Of a stretch of 64,000 nt of DNA, positions 9,829 through 41,796 are shown one piece after another. Position numbers and translations under genes: made by a program. Numbering within the stretch: the stretch's first letter is position 1; each line of letters opens with the position of its first letter. Origin of the DNA: Pseudarthrobacter siccitolerans (lineage in GTDB: Bacteria > Actinomycetota > Actinomycetes > Actinomycetales > Micrococcaceae); contig NZ_JAUSXB010000001.1 of NCBI RefSeq assembly GCF_030823375.1, positions 2,108,001 through 2,172,000 on the forward strand, in the 5' to 3' direction. A model generated the notes under the pieces. It was not told the DNA's origin. It did no database searches and saw only the letters and a program-made list of their open reading frames with translations.

Positions 9829-10149
9829 TCAGGGTGGCCAGTGGGCTGCCATTACCCCAGCGCCGCACGTCCATATAGTTTCCAACATGTAGTGGTAGTA
9901 ACTTCTAGACTTGACCTCTATGGCTTGAACTTGCCTGTGCTCACCTCTCGGCATACACCACCTCTTTCCTGACCGACGCTCCGCCCACATTCCGAATCCG
10001 AAGAATCTTTCACTGAGCAGACGTACGACCGCTAGGAGGAGCAACCCAACGAGGACACCCGTGATGACGCCCCAAGATCCGAGTCCTGGGACCACTGGCA
10101 CCCTCAACCAACGATGTATTGAATATATAAGAATGCGAAAAGTCATCAA
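9829..10149 (-). CDS. Small single-helix membrane protein (hypothetical)
   Basis: 106-aa ORF with one strong hydrophobic helix (about 22-44, WGVITGVLVGLLLLAVVRLL), a short basic segment before it and a basic, aromatic cytoplasmic-type tail. No family is recognised. The start (ATG-ATG at 10149) has only a distant AGGAAG site. Support comes mainly from the hairpin terminator directly behind the stop. It is AT-richer than the flanking core genes and shares their minus-strand orientation, so it probably belongs to the same acquired block. Confidence 0.45.
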   Translation of the reverse strand: MMTFRILIYSIHRWLRVPVVPGLGSWGVITGVLVGLLLLAVVRLLSERFFGFGMWAERRSGKRWCMPRGEHRQVQAIEVKSRSYYHYMLETIWTCGAGVMAAHWPP

Positions 10150-10347
10150 AATTGATAACTAGTTGCTTCCTGACGAACTGAAACCCCCTTTATCAAGTCA
10201 AATCGCAGGAACCCGCCCTTCGGCTTTCGCTAGTAATTAAGCTGCACTCCACTGGCATCACCCCCGCAACAACAGCTTGCGTTTCCGATAGGGGTCCATC
10301 CAACGGAGATAAGCAATGCCTGAAACAGCTGCGCCTAATCCGTACCC

Positions 10348-12366
10348 CTAAACCTCCGCCACAGGAGCTGCGAACTGGGCCTCATACAGCCGCGCGTACG
10401 CACCGCCCGCAGCCAGCAGCGAGGCGTGCGTGCCCTGCTCCACGATCTGGCCAGCCTCCATCACCAGGATGAGGTCGGCGTCGCGGATGGTGGACAGACG
10501 GTGCGCGATCACGAACGAAGTCCGGTCCGACCGCAGGGCACTCATCGCCTTCTGCACCAGCACCTCAGTCCGGGTGTCCACGGAAGAGGTCGCCTCGTCG
10601 AGAATCAGCACAGACGGCCGCGCCAGGAACGCCCGCGCAATCGTTAGCAGCTGCTTCTCCCCCGCGGACACATTGGAGCCCTCGTCATCCAGCACGGTGT
10701 CGTACCCCTCAGGCAAGGACCGCACGAACCGGTCCACATACGTCGCCTGGGCCGCCTCGAGGATCTCGGATTCAGTAGCCCCAGTCCGCCCATACGCGAT
10801 GTTGTCCCGGATGGTCCCGCCGAAAAGCCACGTATCCTGCAGCACCATCCCCAGCCGCGAGCGCAGCTCGCGCCGGGGCACCGAGGTGACGTCCACCCCG
10901 TCGAGCGTTATCCGCCCCGCATCCAGTTCGTAGAACCGCATCATCAGGTTCACCAGCGTGGTCTTGCCCGCACCCGTCGGGCCCACAATCGCCACCGTCT
11001 GCCCCGGCTCCGCCACCAGAGAAAGCCCACTAATGAGCGGCTTGTCCGGCGAATACGAGAAGGAAACGTCCTCGAACACCAGCCGCCCCCGCCCAAAAAC
11101 CGGCGAAGCAGAAGCAGCAGGCTCAGCAGACTCCTCCGCCTCGTCCAACAACGAGAACACCCGCTCCGCCGAGGCCACCCCGGACTGCAGCAGGTTCGCC
11201 ATGGACCCCAGCTGCGCCAGCGGCATGGTGAACTGCCGCGAGTACTGGATGAACGCCTGCACGTCGCCCAGCTGCATCGCCCCGGACGCCACCTGCAGGC
11301 CGCCCACCACGGCGATTCCCACGTACACCAGGTTCCCGATAAACGTCATGGCCGGCATGATCAGCCCGGAAATGAACTGCGCCCCGAAGCTCGCCTCATA
11401 CAGCTCCACGTTCTTCTGCCGGAACCGCTCCCCCACCTCCTGCTGCCGGCCGAACACCTTCACCAGCGCATGCCCGGTGTACGTCTCCTCGATCTGCCCG
11501 TTCAGCTCCCCCGTATGCTTCCACTGCGCCACGAACAGCTTCTGCGAGCGCTTGGCAATCAGCGCGGTGATCCCCAGCGTCAGCGGAATGGTCACCAGCG
11601 CAATCAGCGCCAGCGTGGGCGAGAGGATCACCATCATCACCAGCACGCCCACCACGGACAGCACCGACGTGACCGCCTGGCTGATGCTCTGCTGCAGGCT
11701 TTGCGAGATGTTGTCCACGTCGTTGGTGACCCGGCTCAGCAGCTCACCGCGCTGGATCGAGTCGAAATACCGCAGCGGCAGCCGGTGGATCTTCGCCTCG
11801 ATCTCCTCGCGCAGCCCGGACACCGTCCGCTGCACCACCCCGTTCAGCACATACGCCTGCACCCACATAAACCCCGACGCCAGCACATACAGCACCAGCG
11901 CCCACATCAGCACACTGCCCAGCGCGGCGAAGTCGATCCCCTGCCCCGGCGTCAGCGCCATCGGCGTCAGCATGTCCGCCTTCTGGTTCTCCCCCGCGGC
12001 CCGCAGCTGCGCGATCAGCTGCTCCTTGCTCACCCCCGCGGGCAGCTGCCTGGACACCACCCCGGAGAAGATCAGGTTGGTGCCCTCCCCCAGCAGCCGC
12101 GGCCCGATCACCTGCAGCGCCACGCTGGCCACCGCCGTGGCGAGCACCAGCATCAGCCATGCCCGTTCCGGCCGCAGTTTGCCCAGCAGCCGCTTGGCCG
12201 ACGGCCCGAAGTTCATCGCCTTCTCCACCGGGACATTCATCCCTGCAAAGGGCCCGCCGCGCCCCGGCCCGCCTGCCGGACGCGGAATGCGTACGACGTC
12301 GGCACTTGCAGTTTTGGAGGCGGGTGCAGCCTTGGTGCCGGCTTCGGAGGTGGGTTCCGGGCTCAT
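10348..12366 (-). CDS. ABC exporter half-transporter (canonical ATP site subunit)
   Basis: 672-aa type I ABC exporter with an unusual N-terminal extension of about 70 residues, six membrane helices (about 75-400) and a nucleotide-binding domain (about 430-665). Walker A GPTGAGKTT, signature VSAGEKQLL and Walker B LILDEATSSVD with the catalytic Glu are all present. Its start overlaps the stop of the partner gene by 4 bases (ATGA), indicating translational coupling. The partner has Asp in place of the catalytic Glu, so the pair should form an asymmetric heterodimer of the BmrCD or TM287/288 type. Probable substrate: drugs or lipids; not deducible here. Confidence 0.92.
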   Translation of the reverse strand: MSPEPTSEAGTKAAPASKTASADVVRIPRPAGGPGRGGPFAGMNVPVEKAMNFGPSAKRLLGKLRPERAWLMLVLATAVASVALQVIGPRLLGEGTNLIFSGVVSRQLPAGVSKEQLIAQLRAAGENQKADMLTPMALTPGQGIDFAALGSVLMWALVLYVLASGFMWVQAYVLNGVVQRTVSGLREEIEAKIHRLPLRYFDSIQRGELLSRVTNDVDNISQSLQQSISQAVTSVLSVVGVLVMMVILSPTLALIALVTIPLTLGITALIAKRSQKLFVAQWKHTGELNGQIEETYTGHALVKVFGRQQEVGERFRQKNVELYEASFGAQFISGLIMPAMTFIGNLVYVGIAVVGGLQVASGAMQLGDVQAFIQYSRQFTMPLAQLGSMANLLQSGVASAERVFSLLDEAEESAEPAASASPVFGRGRLVFEDVSFSYSPDKPLISGLSLVAEPGQTVAIVGPTGAGKTTLVNLMMRFYELDAGRITLDGVDVTSVPRRELRSRLGMVLQDTWLFGGTIRDNIAYGRTGATESEILEAAQATYVDRFVRSLPEGYDTVLDDEGSNVSAGEKQLLTIARAFLARPSVLILDEATSSVDTRTEVLVQKAMSALRSDRTSFVIAHRLSTIRDADLILVMEAGQIVEQGTHASLLAAGGAYARLYEAQFAAPVAEV

Positions 12367-30101: not shown

Positions 30102-32576
<2,475 letters not shown>

Positions 32577-32598
32577 GTTCGATTTACTGAAGACTGCG

Positions 32599-32631
32599 TC
32601 CGGGCCGGCTGCTTCCTGCGGCCGGCCCGGA
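32599..32631 (+). terminator. katG terminator
   Basis: TCCGGGCCGGCTGC (32599-32612) pairs with GCGGCCGGCCCGGA (32618-32631) with one G-T pair; loop TTCCT. A near-copy ends the downstream operon. Confidence 0.85.
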
Positions 32632-32654
32632 TTGCTCATCATGCCGTTTTCAAG

Positions 32655-32736
32655 TAGGGTGATTGCCCGCAAAATAGGGGAGGTTGCCCGAATTGTGGGG
32701 GGTTCTTGCCCTTTAATAGGGGTGATTCTCCGTTGA
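32655..32736. promoter_or_regulatory. Four phased GGG-N-CCC repeats before the glucan operon
   Basis: Four consecutive imperfect units of 20, 20, 22 and 20 bases, starting at 32655, 32675, 32695 and 32717. Each begins TAGGG or GTGGGG and has a CCC or TCTCC block about 6 bases on, so each is a small dyad spaced by two helical turns. This suits cooperative binding of a dimeric regulator or response regulator. The remainder of 32577-33092 holds the katG terminator and no supported gene. Confidence 0.6.
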
Positions 32737-33092: not shown

Positions 33093-36000
33093 ATGCTTAC
33101 TGATCCGTCTGTCCCCGCCAACGGGACCAGGGACGGGGTCCTCCTCAAGGTGGAACCGCCGGAGGGCGCTTTCACTGCCCCGGCCCTCACGCTGCAACGG
33201 GTGCTCTTCGCCAGCGCCGAGGCGTACCCGTTCATGAAGGTGGGCGGACTGGCTGACGTCAGCAGTGCTCTGCCGAAGAGATTATCCCGGCTGGGCTTTG
33301 ACGTCCGTCTGGTGATTCCGGCTTACAGGGGCCTCGGAGGCAGCCCGGTGCTGACGATCGATGTGCCGTTGGGTCCGATCGCCGAGCGCGTCATTGTTCG
33401 CCGGCTCCCGTCCTTGGGCGGAGTGGACGTAATCGCACTTGACGCTCCGGGGTGGTTCGACCGGGAGTTACCGTACAGCTATCAGGACAACGACGTCATG
33501 CCGTTTGTGCTGTTCTCCAAAGCAGTCACAGCGCTGGCTGCCCAGGGAGAGTGGCTTCCGGACATCATTCACTGCAACGACTGGCATTGCGGGCTCGTGG
33601 CGCAGGAAGTCCGGCAGGGACTGCACAGGCAGGCGCTAGCAGGAACCGGGATCGTCTTCACCATCCACAACATCGCCTATCAGGGGCCTGTAGGGGCCGC
33701 GACCGACCAGCTGATAGGACTGCCGCAGGGCGGAAGCTTGCTCGAACGGGGCATCGCATTCGCAGACCGGATAAACACCGTTAGTCCCCGTTACATGGAG
33801 GAGATCCTCACCCCGGCCCAGGGAGCGGGTTTGGACGGGCTGCTGCGGGCCCGCAGGGGCGCCGCCCGCGGCATCCTTAATGGCGTCGACTACGACGAGT
33901 TCAGCCCCGGGGTGGACCCGTGGATTGACACCCGCTACAACGGCGATTTCATCGCAGGCAAGGGCGCGAACAAGAAAGTCCTGCAGAAGCTCAGCAACCT
34001 GGAGCCCGCTCCAGACCGACCGGTCTTCGGCATGGTGGCCCGGCTGGTATCCCAGAAAGGGATCAGCCTGCTGACTTCCGCTTTGGAGCAGTTCGTCGCC
34101 CGGGGAGCCCAGGTGGTGGTGCTGGGTGAGGGTGCGCCCCGGTACCGGCGCCAACTGCAGTCGGCCACCCGGAGTTACCCCGGAAGCGTGAGCTACCATC
34201 CCACGTCGAGTGAATCCCTGGCCCGGCAGGTCTACGCCGGCAGTGACTTCTTCCTTGCGCCATCCGTTTTCGAGCCGTGCGGGCTGACGCCGCTGATCGC
34301 CCTGAAATACGGCACCATCCCCATCGTGCGCCGCACCGGCGGCCTCGCCGACACCGTGACCGATTACGTCGAGGATCCGGCCGAAGGACTGGGGTTCGTC
34401 TTCGTGCAACGCCGCGTCACGTCCATGCTGTCGGCTGTGGACAACGCACTGGCACTCTACTCACGGACGCCCGAAATGAACCATCTCCAGCGGAGGGCAA
34501 TGAGGGCAGACTTCTCCTGGCGGATGCCTGCGCGTGAGTATGTGGCCGTGTACGAGGAGGCCCTGCACTCACGCAATATCATCGAGGTCAGCCGGGGCAC
34601 CGAACAGACCAGCCAGCCGGGACTCCGGCCGAGGCCGGGTTCCGCTCCGCTTCCCTTGGCGCTCGTCCACCATGCCAATCAGTTCCTGATTACCGACGGC
34701 TATCAGGACCGGGAGGGCCTGACCTCACTGCTTAGGGGGTACAGTGCGCTGCTGCGGCTGCACGAGAAGTACCGCGTCCCGCTGAACCTCCACCTGTCCG
34801 GGACACTGATTGAAGCCGCAGCCTGGCACCACCCTTGGTTCCTGGCGGAGGTCCGCCGGCTTCGCGACGTCGGCCTGGTCTCACTCATGGGCGGGACATA
34901 CTCCGAAAACGTCCTTACCGCCTTCGGCAGGGAATACAACCGGCGGCAACTGCAGGAGTTGTTTTGGCTCTACCGGCACCACCTCGGGTGCGCACCCGGC
35001 GATCTGGAGATCTGCTGGGTTCCTGAGCGGGTGTGGGATACGGACCGCCTTGCCAAGGTCCTGACCGACCCTCGGCTGCCGAATGGCGGATATCGTTACG
35101 TCCTGCTCGATGATCGGCTGCTGTATCCCTCCGATGGTGCCCACGGCGTCAGCGACAGGCTTGAATTTGATGGCGCTGACCCGGCCAGCCCTCCTCCTTC
35201 GGATGCCCTTCGCCCATACCGTATCAAGGGCGGCAAGGGCCTGCAGATCGTGCCGATGTCGACCCGGCTGCGCTACTGGATTCCTCCTGATGACAGGAGC
35301 CACTGGCGTAGCCTGTCCCGGGCTGCCGAGCTTCCAATGGCTCCCGGTGATGACAGCATCCTGGTCTACGCGGACGACATGGAAAAGAGCGCGGGAGTGG
35401 GGCCGTGGCATCCCAGTGCCCTCGGCCGGTATGAGGAGTTCCTGCGCTGGCTTGCCACCCAGCCCAAGCTTTTACCTGTGGACCTGTCATCGTGGCTTCG
35501 CCAGCGCCGGAGGAGCCCGGCTGTCCGGGTTGTGGAACGCGGGACCTTCGTGGAGCTGGCCAAGGACTGGCACGCGGGCGAAGACTACAGCGGCTGGGGC
35601 AAGGACGAAGCGTGGGCCCCTTACCAGGAGCACCTCGCCCGGGCCCGCCGTGTAGTGGCCGACGCAGAGCGGGCGGGCGCAGAACCCCGGCTGACGGCGC
35701 TTGCCTGGAAGCATGTGCTTGCTTCCGGGTATGAGACGGCATGGCACGACATTGACCACCCCGACCGGCTGCCGGCCCCTTGGGCCAAGGCTGTGGCCAG
35801 CCATGTGCGGGCCGCCTGCGTGTTGGCCGCCGCCGCCGGATGGTTCGGCCGGCAGGTCCGCCCGCTGGAGGCCGAAATGATTGACATTGACGACGACGGC
35901 GTCGAGGAGCTGGTGCTGCGAAACGAGCACCTGTTCGCGGTGCTCGCCCCGAAGCATGGCGGCCGGCTGGTCTACCTGGCGTATCGGGGCCCTAACGGGG

Positions 36001-36623
36001 GCGTTTTAGTAATCGGCAACCCTACTGACGACTGGAACCGCCAGGAGGAGCTGAACACTTACATGGACGTGCCAGCCAACCACCCCGGCGGCCTTGCCGA
36101 TGGCGGAGGCGTCCACGACCGATACGACGTCAGCATCCACTGGGGGGACGGAATCATCGTATCGGAGCTGAGGAACGTGCAGGAGGACAGCCCTCTGTTC
36201 GGGTTGTGCAAAACCGCGGTCCTTGATGATGCTGCCCCTGCCCTGCTAGTGGCCTACGACCTGCCTGCGGGGGCAGACGGAATCAGCATCCATACGTGCC
36301 TGTCGCCGGACTACTACCGTTTGCTCCGCCATGGCGTGGCAGAGCTGCAGCGTACTGGAGGAACCAGTTGGCAGGGCGCCTCCAGCAGGGCAACCCAGGT
36401 ATGGGTAGCGCTGGCCGACGACGAAGACAGCGCGTGGTGCGACCCGGAAGCACCGGACCCGGGGCACGGGGTCCTCATCAGCCTGCGTGCGCAAGTAGGC
36501 TCCTTCCACCTGCTCATCGGCCTCGGCGAGATTGACGAGGAGGCCGCCCAGGAAATGGTGAAGTCGGGCCGGGAACGGCTCGCCACCCTGGCCGCAGGCG
36601 AGCTGACGGGAGACCGAGCGTGA
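33093..36623 (+). CDS. Glycogen synthase (GT5) fused to a GH57-like domain
   Basis: 1176-aa fusion. Residues about 35-490 are a GT5 glycogen/starch synthase: ADP-glucose lysine in KVGGLADV (Lys49), HCNDWH, and FEPCGL (Glu394) with TGGLADTV. Residues about 520-900 resemble GH57 alpha-glucan enzymes: HHANQF (His526-527), SGTL, the catalytic-Glu motif WVPERVW (Glu645) and an LLDD segment. Residues about 925-1170 are a beta-rich C-terminal module. A stand-alone glgA would end near 480, so this couples alpha-glucan elongation with a branching, transferase or hydrolytic step. It starts a six-ORF operon, overlapping the next gene by GTGA. The ATG at 33093 has AGGA 14 bases upstream; no signal peptide, so cytoplasmic. 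Confidence 0.9.
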   Translation: MLTDPSVPANGTRDGVLLKVEPPEGAFTAPALTLQRVLFASAEAYPFMKVGGLADVSSALPKRLSRLGFDVRLVIPAYRGLGGSPVLTIDVPLGPIAERVIVRRLPSLGGVDVIALDAPGWFDRELPYSYQDNDVMPFVLFSKAVTALAAQGEWLPDIIHCNDWHCGLVAQEVRQGLHRQALAGTGIVFTIHNIAYQGPVGAATDQLIGLPQGGSLLERGIAFADRINTVSPRYMEEILTPAQGAGLDGLLRARRGAARGILNGVDYDEFSPGVDPWIDTRYNGDFIAGKGANKKVLQKLSNLEPAPDRPVFGMVARLVSQKGISLLTSALEQFVARGAQVVVLGEGAPRYRRQLQSATRSYPGSVSYHPTSSESLARQVYAGSDFFLAPSVFEPCGLTPLIALKYGTIPIVRRTGGLADTVTDYVEDPAEGLGFVFVQRRVTSMLSAVDNALALYSRTPEMNHLQRRAMRADFSWRMPAREYVAVYEEALHSRNIIEVSRGTEQTSQPGLRPRPGSAPLPLALVHHANQFLITDGYQDREGLTSLLRGYSALLRLHEKYRVPLNLHLSGTLIEAAAWHHPWFLAEVRRLRDVGLVSLMGGTYSENVLTAFGREYNRRQLQELFWLYRHHLGCAPGDLEICWVPERVWDTDRLAKVLTDPRLPNGGYRYVLLDDRLLYPSDGAHGVSDRLEFDGADPASPPPSDALRPYRIKGGKGLQIVPMSTRLRYWIPPDDRSHWRSLSRAAELPMAPGDDSILVYADDMEKSAGVGPWHPSALGRYEEFLRWLATQPKLLPVDLSSWLRQRRRSPAVRVVERGTFVELAKDWHAGEDYSGWGKDEAWAPYQEHLARARRVVADAERAGAEPRLTALAWKHVLASGYETAWHDIDHPDRLPAPWAKAVASHVRAACVLAAAAGWFGRQVRPLEAEMIDIDDDGVEELVLRNEHLFAVLAPKHGGRLVYLAYRGPNGGVLVIGNPTDDWNRQEELNTYMDVPANHPGGLADGGGVHDRYDVSIHWGDGIIVSELRNVQEDSPLFGLCKTAVLDDAAPALLVAYDLPAGADGISIHTCLSPDYYRLLRHGVAELQRTGGTSWQGASSRATQVWVALADDEDSAWCDPEAPDPGHGVLISLRAQVGSFHLLIGLGEIDEEAAQEMVKSGRERLATLAAGELTGDRA

Positions 36624-37627
36624 GCGCACCAATCCCTGACATTGATGCACGTGCCCAGCGGCAAGCGATTGCCGAGTCCCTGCTCGCCTCGCCGCCACCG
36701 CTTGATGCCCTTCCTCCGGGACGGGCGCAAGTGCTCACACGCTCGGTTGTGCATGCCTCCCGGAGCCGGCCCGTTGTCCGGTGGACCGTAGCCCTTGACT
36801 CCGGGTCCGGCACCTCCACTCTGCTCGCAGTGATCGGCAAGGGCTACCGTGCCGGCGGCGGCGAGCAGGCATGGCGGTTGCTCAGGAGCCTGCGTCAGGC
36901 CGGCTTCGATGAGGCAGAACTCAGGGTTCCTGCGCCATACGGGTTTGACCCGTCGCGTCAGCTTCTCGCGCAAGAGGAGGCCCCAAGCACCACGCTGCAT
37001 TCACTCTTGGACGGCGACCCACGAACGGCCGCGCCCGAAGCCGGCCGGGCAGGGCGCTGGCTGGCCCGCCTGCACCACGTCAGGGGCGTTCATGCGCCCG
37101 ACCTGGCGGCAGACTTCGAGCGGCTCAAGCTGGCCCAGTATGCCGAGGCGTTGGCCGGGCTCTTGCCCAAGGCGGCCGCGAGAGTGGCAGAGCTCACCGC
37201 AGCCACCATTGAGGAGCTGGCCAGGACCGACGGGCCCCGCGTGCTCACACACGGCGACTTCCAACCCAAGAACATCCACTTGGACCGGTACCGTTTCGTG
37301 GTCATCGACTTCGATCGCGCCGCATGGGCCCCTGCCGGGCGGGACCTCGGCCATTTCATCGGGCAGACCCTGACCATGGGCGCCTCCCGGCACGGAAACC
37401 TGACGGCCGCCGTGCCCTGGGTGGACGCGTTCCTGGAAGACTACTCGGCTGCCGGCGGCGATGAAGGTGCAGTCCGGTCCGTCCCCGCCTACGTTGCCCG
37501 CACCTTCGCCGAGGTCCTTTTCTACCGCCTCGTAGTTCGCCCGGTCAGGGACTCCTCGTTCGTCCCTGACTGGTTGGACGCCTGGGAACGGGCTGTGAGC
37601 GCCGCCGCGGGAGGGAGGTCCCGGTGA
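36620..37627 (+). CDS. APH-fold phosphotransferase (intact catalytic loop)
   Basis: 335 aa with the aminoglycoside/choline-kinase fold. Catalytic loop HGDFQPKN (His211, Asp213) and metal-binding VIDFDRA are intact, so it should phosphorylate a small molecule, plausibly a sugar or glycan precursor given its neighbours (maltokinase is an APH-fold relative). The GTG start overlaps the upstream stop (GTGA) and the end overlaps the ABC gene the same way. Antibiotic resistance is possible but less likely in this context. Confidence 0.85.
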   Translation: MSAPIPDIDARAQRQAIAESLLASPPPLDALPPGRAQVLTRSVVHASRSRPVVRWTVALDSGSGTSTLLAVIGKGYRAGGGEQAWRLLRSLRQAGFDEAELRVPAPYGFDPSRQLLAQEEAPSTTLHSLLDGDPRTAAPEAGRAGRWLARLHHVRGVHAPDLAADFERLKLAQYAEALAGLLPKAAARVAELTAATIEELARTDGPRVLTHGDFQPKNIHLDRYRFVVIDFDRAAWAPAGRDLGHFIGQTLTMGASRHGNLTAAVPWVDAFLEDYSAAGGDEGAVRSVPAYVARTFAEVLFYRLVVRPVRDSSFVPDWLDAWERAVSAAAGGRSR

Positions 37628-39546
37628 GACGAACCAGCCGGCGCCAGACTCCCATCTCTGCGGCAGGCACTCCTATTCCCGTCATGCAGGCCCACATGAT
37701 CCTGCGTACCTTCGGACCGTTCCTGCGCCCGCAATGGCCCGGCTGCCTGCTGGCCGCGCTGCTCGCGGTCGCCGGGACGGGCATCGCGCTGCTCAAGCCA
37801 TGGCCGCTGAAGTATCTCTTCGACGAAGTGCTGTTGCCCACCGGGAACCCCACCAGCCAGGACATCCAGTACATCCTGGTCCTGGTCGTCGCGGCGCTGG
37901 CCGGCATCGCCGTCCTGGACTCCTTGGTCGGCGCAGCCCGAAGCTATATCCTCACCGTGGTCGGCGAACGCGTCTCGGCATCAATCCGTACCAAGCTCTA
38001 CGATCACCTGCAGCGGCTGCCCCTTGCGTATCACGAAGGGACACCAACAGGTGAACTGACCACCCGCCTGACTGGAGACGTCGACAAGGTGCGGGCACTG
38101 CTTACCGTGACGCTCGTTGACGCCTCAACGCACGTGCTCACACTGGCCGGCATGGCCGGGGTGCTGCTGGTCATGGACTGGCAACTGAGCCTGGCGCTGC
38201 TGTTGGTGCTGCCACTGTTGCTCCTCACGGTGTCCAGCTTTCGAGCCCGCATCCGCACAGTGGAGGAAAACGCGCGCGACAGCGAGGGCGACCTGGCAGC
38301 GGTAGCGCAGGAGTCACTGGTAGCGATCAAGCTGGTCAAGGCCGCAGGACGGGAAGATGACGAGTCCAAGCGCTTCCGTCGCCACTCCGATGCCGCAGTC
38401 ACTGCTGTGCTGCGCTCGGCGCGGACAAGCGCCGCATTTGGCGCCGCCGTGGACGCTGTGGTGGCTGTAGCCACCACAGGTCTGATCTGGCTTGGAGCCC
38501 AGCGTGTGCTCAAAGGCGCGCTGACACCAGGAGACCTGGTCATCTTCACCTCCTACCTGCGTGACTTCTTCGGCCCAACACGCGCCCTGTCCAAGCTGCC
38601 CGCCCAGCTGGCCCGAGCCGGCGTGCGCGCGGCCCGCATCGCCGACACCCTCCGGCGCAGCCCTGACATCCAGGACAAACCCGGTGCCCTTCCCGCCGGC
38701 CCACCCCGGAAGCAGCTGAGCCTGCACGGGGTCGGATTTTCCTACACCCACGACCGCCCCGTCCTGCGGGATGTGGACCTGACGGTCCCAGTGGGCAGCA
38801 CCCTGGCAGTTGTCGGACCCACCGGGGCCGGGAAGTCCACAATCGCTGCCCTTATGTGCCGGCTGCAGGACCCCACCAGCGGCCGGGTCCTCCTGGACGG
38901 GACGGACCTGCGTGACCTGACTGGCGCCAGCCTGCACACCCAAGTGGGGCTGGTTACCCAGGACGCCGTGCTGTTCCGGGCATCCGTACGGGAGAACATT
39001 GCGTACGGCCGGCCCGATGCCTCGCTGGAAGAGGTCCAGGACGCAGCCCGCGCGGCCCAGGCCCACAACTTCGTGCAGGCGCTGCCCCGCGGCTACGACA
39101 CCGTGCTGGCTGAGCGCGGGGCAACGCTGTCCGGAGGCCAGAAACAGCGGTTGGCACTGGCGCGCGGATTGCTGCAGGGCTGCCCGGTCCTCGTGCTCGA
39201 CGAACCGACGACGGGTCTGGATGCCCAATCCGAGCACGCGCTGCTGGAGGCCCTCCTGCGCGTGGCATCCGGGCGGACCACAGTGATCATCACGCATCGC
39301 ATGGCCGCGGCCATGGCAGCAGACGAGATCGTCGTCCTTGATGCGGGCCGGGTAGTGGAACGCGGTACCCACCACAGGCTCATCGCCCGCGGCGGCCTGT
39401 ATGCCGAGATGTGCCGTCTGCAGGGCATCACCGGCTTACGCCCCGCATGGAACGGCACCAGCCACGGCAATGGGCGCCACCCCTCACCACAGTCCGAAGT
39501 CGAAGCTGACCAGCCCACTACCTACCTGAGAGGAAGCCGACCATGA
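37624..39546 (+). CDS. ABC exporter (homodimeric type) of the glucan operon
   Basis: 640-aa type I exporter: six membrane helices (about 30-320), Walker A GPTGAGKST, signature LSGGQKQRLA, Walker B VLVLDEPTTGLD with catalytic Glu, H-loop ITHRM. All ATPase residues are canonical, so a homodimer is expected. The last 60 residues are a hydrophilic tail. It starts at GTG 37624 after GGGAGG, overlapping the kinase stop, and its own stop overlaps the 44-codon ORF. Cargo is unknown; a glycan, glycolipid or the product of the neighbouring kinases is possible. Confidence 0.92.
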   Translation: MRRTSRRQTPISAAGTPIPVMQAHMILRTFGPFLRPQWPGCLLAALLAVAGTGIALLKPWPLKYLFDEVLLPTGNPTSQDIQYILVLVVAALAGIAVLDSLVGAARSYILTVVGERVSASIRTKLYDHLQRLPLAYHEGTPTGELTTRLTGDVDKVRALLTVTLVDASTHVLTLAGMAGVLLVMDWQLSLALLLVLPLLLLTVSSFRARIRTVEENARDSEGDLAAVAQESLVAIKLVKAAGREDDESKRFRRHSDAAVTAVLRSARTSAAFGAAVDAVVAVATTGLIWLGAQRVLKGALTPGDLVIFTSYLRDFFGPTRALSKLPAQLARAGVRAARIADTLRRSPDIQDKPGALPAGPPRKQLSLHGVGFSYTHDRPVLRDVDLTVPVGSTLAVVGPTGAGKSTIAALMCRLQDPTSGRVLLDGTDLRDLTGASLHTQVGLVTQDAVLFRASVRENIAYGRPDASLEEVQDAARAAQAHNFVQALPRGYDTVLAERGATLSGGQKQRLALARGLLQGCPVLVLDEPTTGLDAQSEHALLEALLRVASGRTTVIITHRMAAAMAADEIVVLDAGRVVERGTHHRLIARGGLYAEMCRLQGITGLRPAWNGTSHGNGRHPSPQSEVEADQPTTYLRGSRP

Positions 39547-39677
39547 CCGGGCACAGCACCCAGCCGGACCCCACCAACTTGATAGCTGGCGTCACCGGTA
39601 GCAGGACGCATGTACCGTCCGGCGCACGAGTTCACTGGATTACCCATAACCCCTTCCGAGTACAGGAGGACGCATGA
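39543..39677 (+). CDS. 44-aa small protein coupled on both sides in the operon
   Basis: ATG 39543 overlaps the ABC stop by 4 bases (ATGA) and its TGA at 39675-39677 overlaps the ATG of the next kinase gene by 4 bases (ATGA). An AGAGGAAG site precedes the start. The product begins MTGHSTQPDPTNLIAGVTG and ends NPFRVQEDA; it is hydrophilic with no membrane segment. No family is recognised. The ORF may be a functional small protein or a coupling device that carries ribosomes across the gap to the next gene. Confidence 0.6.
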   Translation: MTGHSTQPDPTNLIAGVTGSRTHVPSGARVHWITHNPFRVQEDA

Positions 39678-40705
39678 ACCGCACCCAAATCCCGTCCCAA
39701 CACCGCGATATCAAGGAGCAGCAGGTCAATCGTGCCGAACGGGTCTGTGCACCGGAGTTCCTCAACCGCTATGTCCGCCCACACTTGATTCCGGCTGTTC
39801 CGGGCGCCTCGGACGGAGGCACGTGGACAACAAAGGTGATTCAGCTGGACGGATCGGGGGCCGCCACTGTAGAGATCAATCTCGACGACGGCCCCCCTGT
39901 TTTCGCCAAGCTGTTCCCCTTCGAGGATGGCCCTGCCGTGCACGCAAAATTGCAGGCCATGCGCAACGCCGGGCTGGGGGCCGGCTCCCCGTTCCAGGCT
40001 GTCGAGCCGTTGGCGTGGTGCGGGGACGAAAAGGTCCTGCTGTGCCGGGGAGCCCCGGGCAAAGCACTGTCGGAAGTGCTCGACGACGGCGCTGAACTCA
40101 CCGAGGGCTGCGCCCGCGCGGGATCATGGCTGGCCCACCTGCATAAGGTGGATCTCCGGGTCGGGGCCCCACACTCCCTACTCGTGACAGGGGAACTGAC
40201 GAGCCTGGCCAAACGCCTTGTCAGAGTGGCGACTGACCGTCCTGGCTACGCTGAGGTGGCATTGGGCATGCTCGAACGGTTGGACGACCTCACCCATGAC
40301 ACCGTGGACAGCGTCCATGCCCAAAGCCACGGGCAGTACCGGCCGATCCACGTCTTTCTGACCGAGGAAACCGTTACGGTGATTGACCTCGACCGCAGCG
40401 CCCCGGCGGACCCCGCCCGCGATGTGGCCGAGTTCCTCCACCGGCTCCGCCAAGGCGTTCACTCAGCCACCGGCGACATTTCCCGCGCCGACCAGCCGTG
40501 CGACGCTTTCCTCGGCGCGTATCGGGAGGCAGCCGGCGTCGAACGGCTGCGAAACCTGCGGTTCCACTGGTGCCGGTATATATTCCACAGCCTCAACCGC
40601 GACGTGAAAAACGGGGCCGCCGACTGGCACAACGGTGCAAACGATGTCTTCCGACGTTACCGGGAGGAGTTCTACAGGGTGGCAGAAGGGCGGGCAGGCG
40701 CATGA
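39674..40705 (+). CDS. APH-fold protein with altered catalytic loop (probable pseudokinase)
   Basis: 343 aa of APH fold. The loop corresponding to HGDxxxxN reads HGQYRPIHV (His219, Gln221), so the catalytic Asp is Gln and the metal-binding Asn is lost; the DLD metal motif (Asp238, Asp240) is kept. Activity as a kinase is doubtful; a binding or regulatory role toward the intact kinase or the glucan is possible. A strong AGGAGG at 39664-39669 precedes the ATG. It overlaps the next gene by ATGA. Confidence 0.8.
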   Translation: MNRTQIPSQHRDIKEQQVNRAERVCAPEFLNRYVRPHLIPAVPGASDGGTWTTKVIQLDGSGAATVEINLDDGPPVFAKLFPFEDGPAVHAKLQAMRNAGLGAGSPFQAVEPLAWCGDEKVLLCRGAPGKALSEVLDDGAELTEGCARAGSWLAHLHKVDLRVGAPHSLLVTGELTSLAKRLVRVATDRPGYAEVALGMLERLDDLTHDTVDSVHAQSHGQYRPIHVFLTEETVTVIDLDRSAPADPARDVAEFLHRLRQGVHSATGDISRADQPCDAFLGAYREAAGVERLRNLRFHWCRYIFHSLNRDVKNGAADWHNGANDVFRRYREEFYRVAEGRAGA

Positions 40706-41697
40706 CGTCGACCATGGGCGTCCTGCTGGACCGTGCCGGGGCGGAGCTCCCGCTGTCCGAGCTCGCGAGTCTGTGGCCACTGGGTGGTTGGAACTCAGTT
40801 GCCCCGGTGGCAGGCGGCAAAAACGAGCACCTGCGCGTTGAAGCCACGGATGGTGTCCACTACCTGCGCCGCTCGTACCGGTCCAAACCGCATGAGGAAC
40901 TCGCCCGCCAACTCCGCCTCATGCGGCTGCTCCGGGAGCGGGGATTCCCCGCACCGGAGGTGGCCCCGGCCACCTCCGGCAAGGACCATGCCGAGCTGGA
41001 CGGCCGGTTATGGATCGCAACGCGGGGAGTCGAAGGGACACCGTTCATCGATGCATCGCCGGCGCATGTGCAGGCTATGGGACGAACACTTGCCCGGTAC
41101 CACCAGACCGTGGCCGACCTTCCAGCGGCAGTGGCCGAACCCGCCGTGCTGCTTGAGTTGCGCACGCGGGCAAATGACGAAGGGGTAGAGCCGGCCCTGA
41201 GAAACCGGACCGCGCACCTGGTCGCACAATTAACCGCAGTCCTGCCGCACCTGCCCCGGATGGTGGTGCACGGCGGCGCCCGACGAGGCAGCCTGGTATT
41301 CAACGGCAGCGAGGTAGCGGGCGTCCTGGACTTCGACAGTGCCCACGCGGACGTGCGGGTCCTGGACCTCGCCGTCGCCGTGCACGACGTCGGCAAGGTC
41401 TACACCCGACCAGGCGAAGCCGACAATAAGGTCGCCCTCGACCTCGGCCGGGTCACTGACCTGCTGGCCGCATACAGCCGGGACTTGCGGCCCACCGAGG
41501 CAGAGATCGAGGCGCTGCCGCTGCTGCTGGAGGCCAAACGGTTGAAGCGCGGCCTGGGACGGCTCAGCCGGTCACGGCACGGCGAGAGGCTCTCCGACAA
41601 TGACTACACGAAGATCCGGTTGGAAGACCAGCGGATCGCTTGGCTGGAGGAGCACCGCAGCGCATTGGCGGCCGCTTTCCGGAAAGCCCTGGCGTAG
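40702..41697 (+). CDS. Second APH-fold protein lacking the catalytic Asp
   Basis: 331 aa. The catalytic loop is VHGGARRGSLVF (His190, Gly192): Gly replaces the catalytic Asp, whereas VLDFDSAHAD retains the metal-binding Asp pair. The C-terminal 80 residues are helical and basic. It is the last ORF of the operon, starting at ATG 40702 in an ATGA overlap; a longer frame to 40498 is a shadow. The gene is followed by a katG-like tail and terminator. Confidence 0.8.
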   Translation: MTSTMGVLLDRAGAELPLSELASLWPLGGWNSVAPVAGGKNEHLRVEATDGVHYLRRSYRSKPHEELARQLRLMRLLRERGFPAPEVAPATSGKDHAELDGRLWIATRGVEGTPFIDASPAHVQAMGRTLARYHQTVADLPAAVAEPAVLLELRTRANDEGVEPALRNRTAHLVAQLTAVLPHLPRMVVHGGARRGSLVFNGSEVAGVLDFDSAHADVRVLDLAVAVHDVGKVYTRPGEADNKVALDLGRVTDLLAAYSRDLRPTEAEIEALPLLLEAKRLKRGLGRLSRSRHGERLSDNDYTKIRLEDQRIAWLEEHRSALAAAFRKALA

Positions 41698-41709: not shown

Positions 41710-41796
41710 AAGGTTGGAGCCGGACCGCTTCGACCTGAGCTAAGTTCATCTGATGCAGACGCGTCCGGGCCGGCTGCGGTTTGCGGCCGGCCCGGA
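41710..41796 (+). pseudogene. Degenerate copy of the katG 3' end
   Basis: Matches katG 32541-32631: the last codons DRFDL(G/S) and TAA, the AGTTC that follows, and the terminator stem. There are about a dozen substitutions and small indels. In the copy the final sense codons read GACCGCTTCGACCTGAGC then TAA. With katG itself it forms a direct repeat flanking the 9.1-kb glucan operon. Confidence 0.8.
41764..41796. terminator. Terminator between the glucan operon and the SnoaL-like gene
   Basis: TCCGGGCCGGCTGC (41764-41777) with GCGGCCGGCCCGGA (41783-41796), the same stem as the katG terminator but with a different loop. It lies between convergent genes. Confidence 0.85.

Follow-up and report, generated by a model that had tools for sequence, protein, structure and literature searches.

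In the classical and GlgE pathways of alpha-glucan metabolism (GlgA, GlgE, Mak/Pep2), a GT5 ADP-glucose-type synthase and an APH-fold kinase stand among glucan enzymes, and an excerpt of PMC11046441 states a rule for Gram-positive bacteria on the GT5-type synthase and GlgE. In class V lanthipeptide pathways (LxmK/RosK with RosX and TvaE), as an excerpt of PMC12291118 describes them, an intact APH-fold kinase lies beside catalytically depleted kinase-fold proteins, and RosX and TvaE are active while lacking kinase residues. Single parts of the locus described here also resemble the MsbA and NdvA/ChvA exporters and the 4-alpha-glucanotransferase of Thermococcus litoralis (1k1w). The locus is a six-gene operon of Pseudarthrobacter siccitolerans, in which a GT5-GH57 fusion, several APH-fold proteins and an ATP-binding cassette (ABC) exporter are encoded together. 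The sequence-only reading of this DNA had recognised no described pathway of this composition, and no published account of the gene set was found in the open-licence PMC (PubMed Central) literature.

The operon occupies 33093..41697 of the window, by which we mean the whole stretch of 64,000 nucleotides analysed (G000:C1:2108001-2172000 of the 4.5-Mb host genome). It consists of six consecutive open reading frames (ORFs), and each of the five junctions is a 4-base overlap (GTGA, GTGA, ATGA, ATGA, ATGA; Table 1). All five overlaps claimed from the sequence alone are seen, provided that the coupled start of APH3 is taken at the ATGA at 40702, inside a longer ORF listed from 40498. The assignment of a GT5-GH57 fusion, three APH-fold proteins and an ABC exporter likewise agrees with the family models (Pfam/NCBIfam). 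We regard the overlaps as more than chance because the gene order recurs in relatives and the overlaps recur in L005 and L046 (L numbers denote loci and G numbers genomes). The six genes are coupled in a single operon, and they evolve as a unit.

We propose, with a probability of about one half, that this is a self-contained, horizontally transferred operon that makes and exports an alpha-1,4-glucan-derived product of the malto-oligosaccharide type. Given the intact GT5 motifs and the GlgC of the host, GT5 would extend an alpha-1,4-glucan from host ADP-glucose, and the GH57 domain, distantly related to the T. litoralis enzyme, would trim, transfer or cyclise the chain. APH1, in which the kinase motif is intact and for which a natural fusion of GH57 with a kinase (P0246) provides a parallel, would phosphorylate the GH57 product or its acceptor, and the ABCB/MsbA-type transporter would, judging from its family, export the product. 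APH2, APH3 and, where present, a fourth APH-fold protein, APH4, may be retained, as structural elements or in new roles, as partners in substrate binding, regulation of APH1 or other chemistry, perhaps within a hetero-complex. A phosphorylated or exported glucan, as the sequence-only reading had suggested, is probably the best account of the gene set. If right, this account would add a new bacterial way of making and exporting an alpha-glucan product, one that occurs in soil actinomycetes and extends to other phyla.

Table 1. Features of the operon and its flanks, in window coordinates.
Feature	Coordinates	Strand	Basis
GT5-GH57 fusion, 1176 aa	33093..36623	+	Pfam/NCBIfam, aligned motifs
APH1 (335 aa), APH-fold kinase in which HGDxxPKN and DFD are intact	36620..37627	+	
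ABCB/MsbA-type exporter, membrane and ATPase domains fused, 640 aa	37624..39546	+	Pfam/NCBIfam
44-codon ORF, APH4 deletion scar, both 4-base overlaps kept	39543..39677	+	DNA alignment with L046
APH2, degenerate APH-fold protein (HGQYRPIH), 343 aa	39674..40705	+	
APH3 (331 aa), APH-fold protein, homoserine-kinase-like and degenerate (HGGARRGS)	40702..41697	+	
katG, insertion neighbour outside the system	30180..32576	+	
Direct repeat, left copy, 91 bp: katG 3' end and terminator hairpin	32541..32631	+	
Four imperfect GGGNNNTTGCCC-like repeats at intervals of 20-22 bp, between katG and the operon	32652..32732	+	
Direct repeat, right copy, 87 bp, 85% identical, adjoining SnoaL-like gene	41710..41796	+	

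The GT5 part of the fusion scored 442.1 bits against TIGR02095 (NCBIfam; cut-off 328.45), and the GH57 part 48.3 bits against PF03065 (Pfam; cut-off 21.2). The KxGGL and FEPCGL motifs have recognised roles in GT5 synthases; here KVGGL (residues 49-53) and FEPCGL (393-398) are kept in all 14 aligned GT5-containing sequences, and all 15 aligned GH57 sequences keep Glu645 (W[VI]PERVW) and D761-D762-x-E764. These alignments were made without L008, L017 and L046, where GT5-GH57 carries frameshifts that were left uncorrected (apparent ones in L008 and L046; in L017, from a genome ~79% complete, several genes are affected). Glu645 aligns with Glu123 of 1k1w, which we take to be the nucleophile of that enzyme, and part of the C-terminal domain is matched as well; the relation is distant (34.6 bits), and the operon domain differs in being fused behind GT5. 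From this alignment the GH57 domain is probably 4-alpha-glucanotransferase-like.

Elsewhere in its genome the host encodes GlgC (406739), a GT4 GlgM beside the GlgC gene and, ~1.5 Mb from the operon, a GlgE-type protein (G000:C1:3630279); the last is named from PF11896 (over cut-off), and no NCBIfam GlgE model matched it. The operon is therefore not the only or ordinary glycogen route of the cell, and among its six ORFs no GlgE, TreS or GlgB was matched (Pfam/NCBIfam). These findings bear on the idea that the operon is a variant of the glycogen/GlgE route, in which APH1 would serve as the maltokinase and GT5-GH57 would be an additional glycogen synthase. It differs from the classical and GlgE pathways in the fusion of GT5 to GH57 and in APH1, which is 335 aa long and has no maltokinase model among its NCBIfam matches to E 0.1, and it holds an exporter and pseudoenzymes that have no place in that route. 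We consider such a variant improbable; a known glycogen or maltokinase cluster, which the sequence-only reading had named as an alternative, did not emerge from the searches. By holding both a GT5-type synthase (window 33093-34600) and a GlgE-type protein, this Gram-positive genome contradicts the rule of PMC11046441, as the excerpt words it.

APH1 matched PF01636 over cut-off (Pfam) and carries HGDFQPKN, and its residues H211, G212, D213, P216, K217, N218, D230 and D232 are invariant in 16 of 16 aligned sequences. AlphaFold2 models of APH1 and APH2 (pLDDT, the predicted local distance difference test, 88.3 and 90.3, respectively) share the fold of solved APH/ChoK-type kinases. The APH1 fold is comparable to maltokinase and to many others, and the attempt to read an APH substrate from fold comparison was dropped since many kinases tie. 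The metagenomic protein P0246 is a GH57 fused to a kinase bearing HGDFHPEN. Its GH57 is 46% identical to that of the window over 642 columns, and its kinase part matches APH1 (27%, E 9e-23) more closely than APH2 (24%, E 3e-12). This natural fusion suggests that the kinase and the glucan enzyme act together, and hence that APH1 may work with the glucan enzyme of the operon.

APH2 and APH3 also matched PF01636 over cut-off, APH3 being nearest to homoserine kinase, and the earlier distinction between one intact kinase and two proteins without the catalytic Asp is borne out by their motifs. In APH2 the catalytic Asp is replaced by Gln and the metal-binding Asn by His. Its residues Q221, R223, H226, D238 and D240 are invariant in 24 of 24 sequences, a set made up of the query and 23 hand-chosen from the 202 APH2 relatives matched in a predicted-protein collection. 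Gln also occupies the catalytic position in G621, a genome of another actinobacterial class, and the Chloroflexi and Acidobacteria APH2-like copies for which the motif was displayed have Gln, Arg or Thr there. In APH3 the catalytic Asp has become Gly (HGG) in 17 of 18 loci and Ser in the eighteenth, L019, and APH4 has Ser at this position in 10 of 10 loci. By these replacements APH2, APH3 and APH4 are marked as non-standard kinases. Each keeps a replacement motif of its own (HGQ...H in APH2, HGGxRR in APH3, mostly HGSYG in APH4). The ratio of nonsynonymous to synonymous substitution rates (dN/dS) was 0.12-0.37 in 49 of 49 comparisons, made for six genes across up to five close loci, with L046 omitted for GT5-GH57 and APH4 compared in three loci only. 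Because their own motifs are conserved under purifying selection, the degenerate kinases are judged to be maintained and not decaying.

RosX and TvaE offer a possible precedent by analogy, in that kinase-fold proteins are described there, in the excerpt of PMC12291118, as doing other chemistry beside an intact kinase; the pseudoenzymes of the operon differ in retaining the second metal-binding Asp, which is reportedly absent from RosX. Only tentatively, and with clear doubt, we suggest that up to four APH proteins (one kinase and at most three pseudoenzymes) form a hetero-complex on a glucan made by GT5-GH57, that at least one pseudoenzyme performs non-kinase chemistry, and that a phosphorylated, possibly cyclic glucan is exported. 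Whatever their role, up to three different degenerate APH paralogues beside one intact kinase make the operon a natural test bed for pseudokinase retention.

No family matched the 44-codon ORF (Pfam/NCBIfam), which the sequence-only reading had counted as a component of the operon. Its origin became clear from the relatives. In 10 of 16 actinomycete loci (L004, L005, L006, L008, L009, L011, L013, L014, L015 and L046) an intact fourth APH-fold gene of 381-412 codons, APH4, lies between the ABC gene and APH2, and in L005 and L046 it has 4-base overlaps with both neighbours. The DNA of L046 is 92-93% identical to that of the window in this region; window 38001-39624 aligns with L046 13659-12036, and window 39622-41000 with L046 10973-9595. 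Relative to L046, 1,065 bp (355 codons) are absent from the window as an in-frame deletion, and the 44 codons are both ends of the 399-codon APH4 gene (399 aa in L046) joined in frame. The ORF is thus the scar of a deleted APH4, and its candidacy as a functional peptide or as the precursor of a ribosomally synthesised and post-translationally modified peptide was ruled out.

The other loci lacking an intact APH4 differ in what is left of it. The remnant in L045 is unlike that of the window and out of frame, L007 contains a decayed pseudogene, and only the last codons persist in L010, L012 and L017. In a tree of APH1, ABC, APH2 and APH3, L045 groups with L046 (support 95/93) and L010 with L012 (99/99); this tree omits L016, L017, L018 and L020, has long-branch outgroups and leaves five forks open. 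Because L045 groups with L046, whose APH4 is intact, and L010 with L012, APH4 must have been lost or have decayed in six of the 16 loci through at least four events (in the window, in L045, in L007 and in the L010/L012 line). Such repeated loss of APH4, while the other operon genes stayed under selection, adds to the interest of the system.

The scar also bears on a reading modelled on class V lanthipeptides, in which APH1 would be a LanK, the degenerate APH proteins LanX-like cyclases and the 44-aa ORF the precursor. LxmK is indeed the best NCBIfam match of both APH1 and APH2, with scores of 40.4 and 30.5 bits that fall far short of the 315-bit cut-off, and RosX/TvaE, from the excerpted account in PMC12291118, provide the precedent of a kinase fold without kinase residues. 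The supposed precursor, however, is the deletion scar, and the coupled genes leave no room for another gene between them. Glucan enzymes and an exporter make up the rest of the unit, the Pfam/NCBIfam matches include no lyase, and no small ORF recurs in the flanks, where the clustering is insensitive to peptides so short. This reading is largely refuted and scarcely deserves further weight.

The exporter matched PF00664 and PF00005 over their cut-offs (Pfam), with membrane and ATPase domains fused. In NCBIfam it scored 472 bits with TIGR02204 and 253.6 bits with the chvA glucan-exporter model. It resembles the MsbA and NdvA/ChvA exporters as a fused ABCB-type half transporter matching both of these models, and differs from them in falling below the cut-off in the 25 families listed of 192 matched. 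Resistance commonly involves members of the APH and ABC efflux families, and an antibiotic kinase with an efflux pump would make a drug-resistance or anti-phage module. However, of the six proteins PADLOC matched the ABC protein only, and this through its ATPase part; a defence system was rejected on this ground. APH2 had no match among 72,556 plasmid records, and a glucan synthase and pseudoenzymes would have no role in such a module, which we consider very unlikely.

The order GT5-GH57, APH1, ABC, (APH4), APH2, APH3 was found in 16 of 16 actinomycete loci, the window included, which come from Arthrobacter, Pseudarthrobacter, Pseudonocardia, Geodermatophilus and Nocardioides. The other 15 are L004-L015, L017, L045 and L046; L047, L048 and L050, second copies of L015, L013 and L010, were not counted. 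The nearest relatives of the window operon are in Arthrobacter and Pseudarthrobacter. The possibility that the genes would occur separately in relatives with unrelated roles had been raised with the sequence-only reading; in the genomes searched they travel together. The genome collections were sampled with one genome per species, and in them APH2 was matched in 12 of the 150 genus genomes (that of the window among them; G053 frameshifted, G061 a remnant), in one of 296 of the class (the window's own), in two of 396 of the phylum (the window's own and G621) and in one of 39 of the class of G621 (G621 itself); in the class and phylum screens, scoring was confined to the few best initial candidates of each genome. 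By these counts the operon is rare. From its conserved order and this occurrence the operon is read as a conserved, horizontally moving unit.

Beyond the actinomycete loci the set varies. G621 encodes GT5-GH57 (as two ORFs), ABC, two alkaline-phosphatase-superfamily proteins, an unassigned 556-aa protein, APH1, APH2 and APH3. In a Chloroflexi metagenome-assembled genome (MAG; L019), APH1, a stand-alone GH57, three APH2-like genes, an APH3-like gene and an exporter follow one another, with two small ORFs among them. In Acidobacteria MAGs, APH2-like genes adjoin an ABC exporter. One such MAG, G803, has a GH57 of the operon type and APH2/ABC at the ends of two different contigs that are not joined; in the other, G804, no GH57 of the operon type was found. 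The Verrucomicrobia label of L016, a MAG contig of 3.5 kb, is not trusted. From these comparisons the recurring core is taken to be the APH-fold proteins and the exporter, usually with GH57, GT5 being less constant.

The flanks show no comparable constancy. Genes of at least 40 codons were called and clustered there, those of the other loci without annotation, and no flanking family occurred in more than five of the 20 loci clustered; katG was the widest (five), and the other families seen in at least three loci occurred in three or four each, mostly close relatives. This matters for a further explanation, an acarbose-like secondary metabolite, for which the glucan enzymes would supply maltosyl units, the kinase self-protection or activation, and the ABC protein export of the compound. 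Acarbose clusters reportedly combine a kinase, an exporter and glucan-transfer enzymes in this way, the distribution of the operon is patchy over several families, and the predicted APH1 model fits drug-type kinases as well as sugar kinases. Yet no enzyme for a non-sugar core was matched among the six genes (Pfam/NCBIfam), and the lack of a widely shared flanking family speaks against a linked core pathway, with the flanks of the other loci unannotated and an unlinked or variable one thus possible. The conserved pseudoenzymes would also be left unexplained. We regard this explanation as unlikely, and prefer the export of an alpha-glucan-derived product.

The position of the operon next to katG had been taken as a hint of a role in stress. 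In the window the operon sits between katG and a SnoaL-like gene, and each of its sides carries a copy of the katG 3' end with the terminator. The corresponding empty site was found in G015 (L081) and G109 (L082), where the SnoaL-like gene directly follows katG; neither genome is among the 12 of the genus with an APH2 match. L004, L005, L045 and L046 have katG on the left and other right flanks, and these four and the window are the only loci with katG in the fetched flank. In G143, the genome of L006, katG lies ~12 kb from the operon. Across the genus katG was matched in 70 of 150 genomes, against 12 with the operon (APH2 match). The operon probably entered by recombination at katG, and with such an insertion katG says nothing about operon function. 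The neighbour is real, and the stress link was rejected: the empty sites, the flanking direct repeat and the occurrence in five of 20 loci show katG as an incidental insertion neighbour.

Several smaller observations concern the relatives. In G061 only remnants remain (L049), with exporter and APH2 pieces at 10008-10486; its flanking families are common to L010, L012 and L017, which suggests that the operon decayed there at the same site. Of the two alkaline-phosphatase-superfamily proteins between the exporter and APH1 of G621 (L053 13419-16655), one is sulfatase-like and the other phosphodiesterase-like; inspection by eye showed no obvious signal peptide. The contig with the APH2-like genes of G804 (G804:C727) also encodes a protein with a GT28 C-terminal domain (L055 5288-6349). 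In L018, a 666-aa protein (449-2449) with two APH2-like motifs (HGQYTPAN and HGRFHHDH) adjoins an ABC exporter. The host of the window operon has a second katG (G000:C1:2417281-2419617), the protein of which is 91% identical to that of the window katG. Finally, the repeat array noted earlier between katG and the operon is present as four imperfect copies (Table 1), which Tandem Repeats Finder did not report at its default score; inspection by eye showed similar GGGNNNTTGCCC-like repeats in L005, L045 and L046, likewise upstream of the operon.

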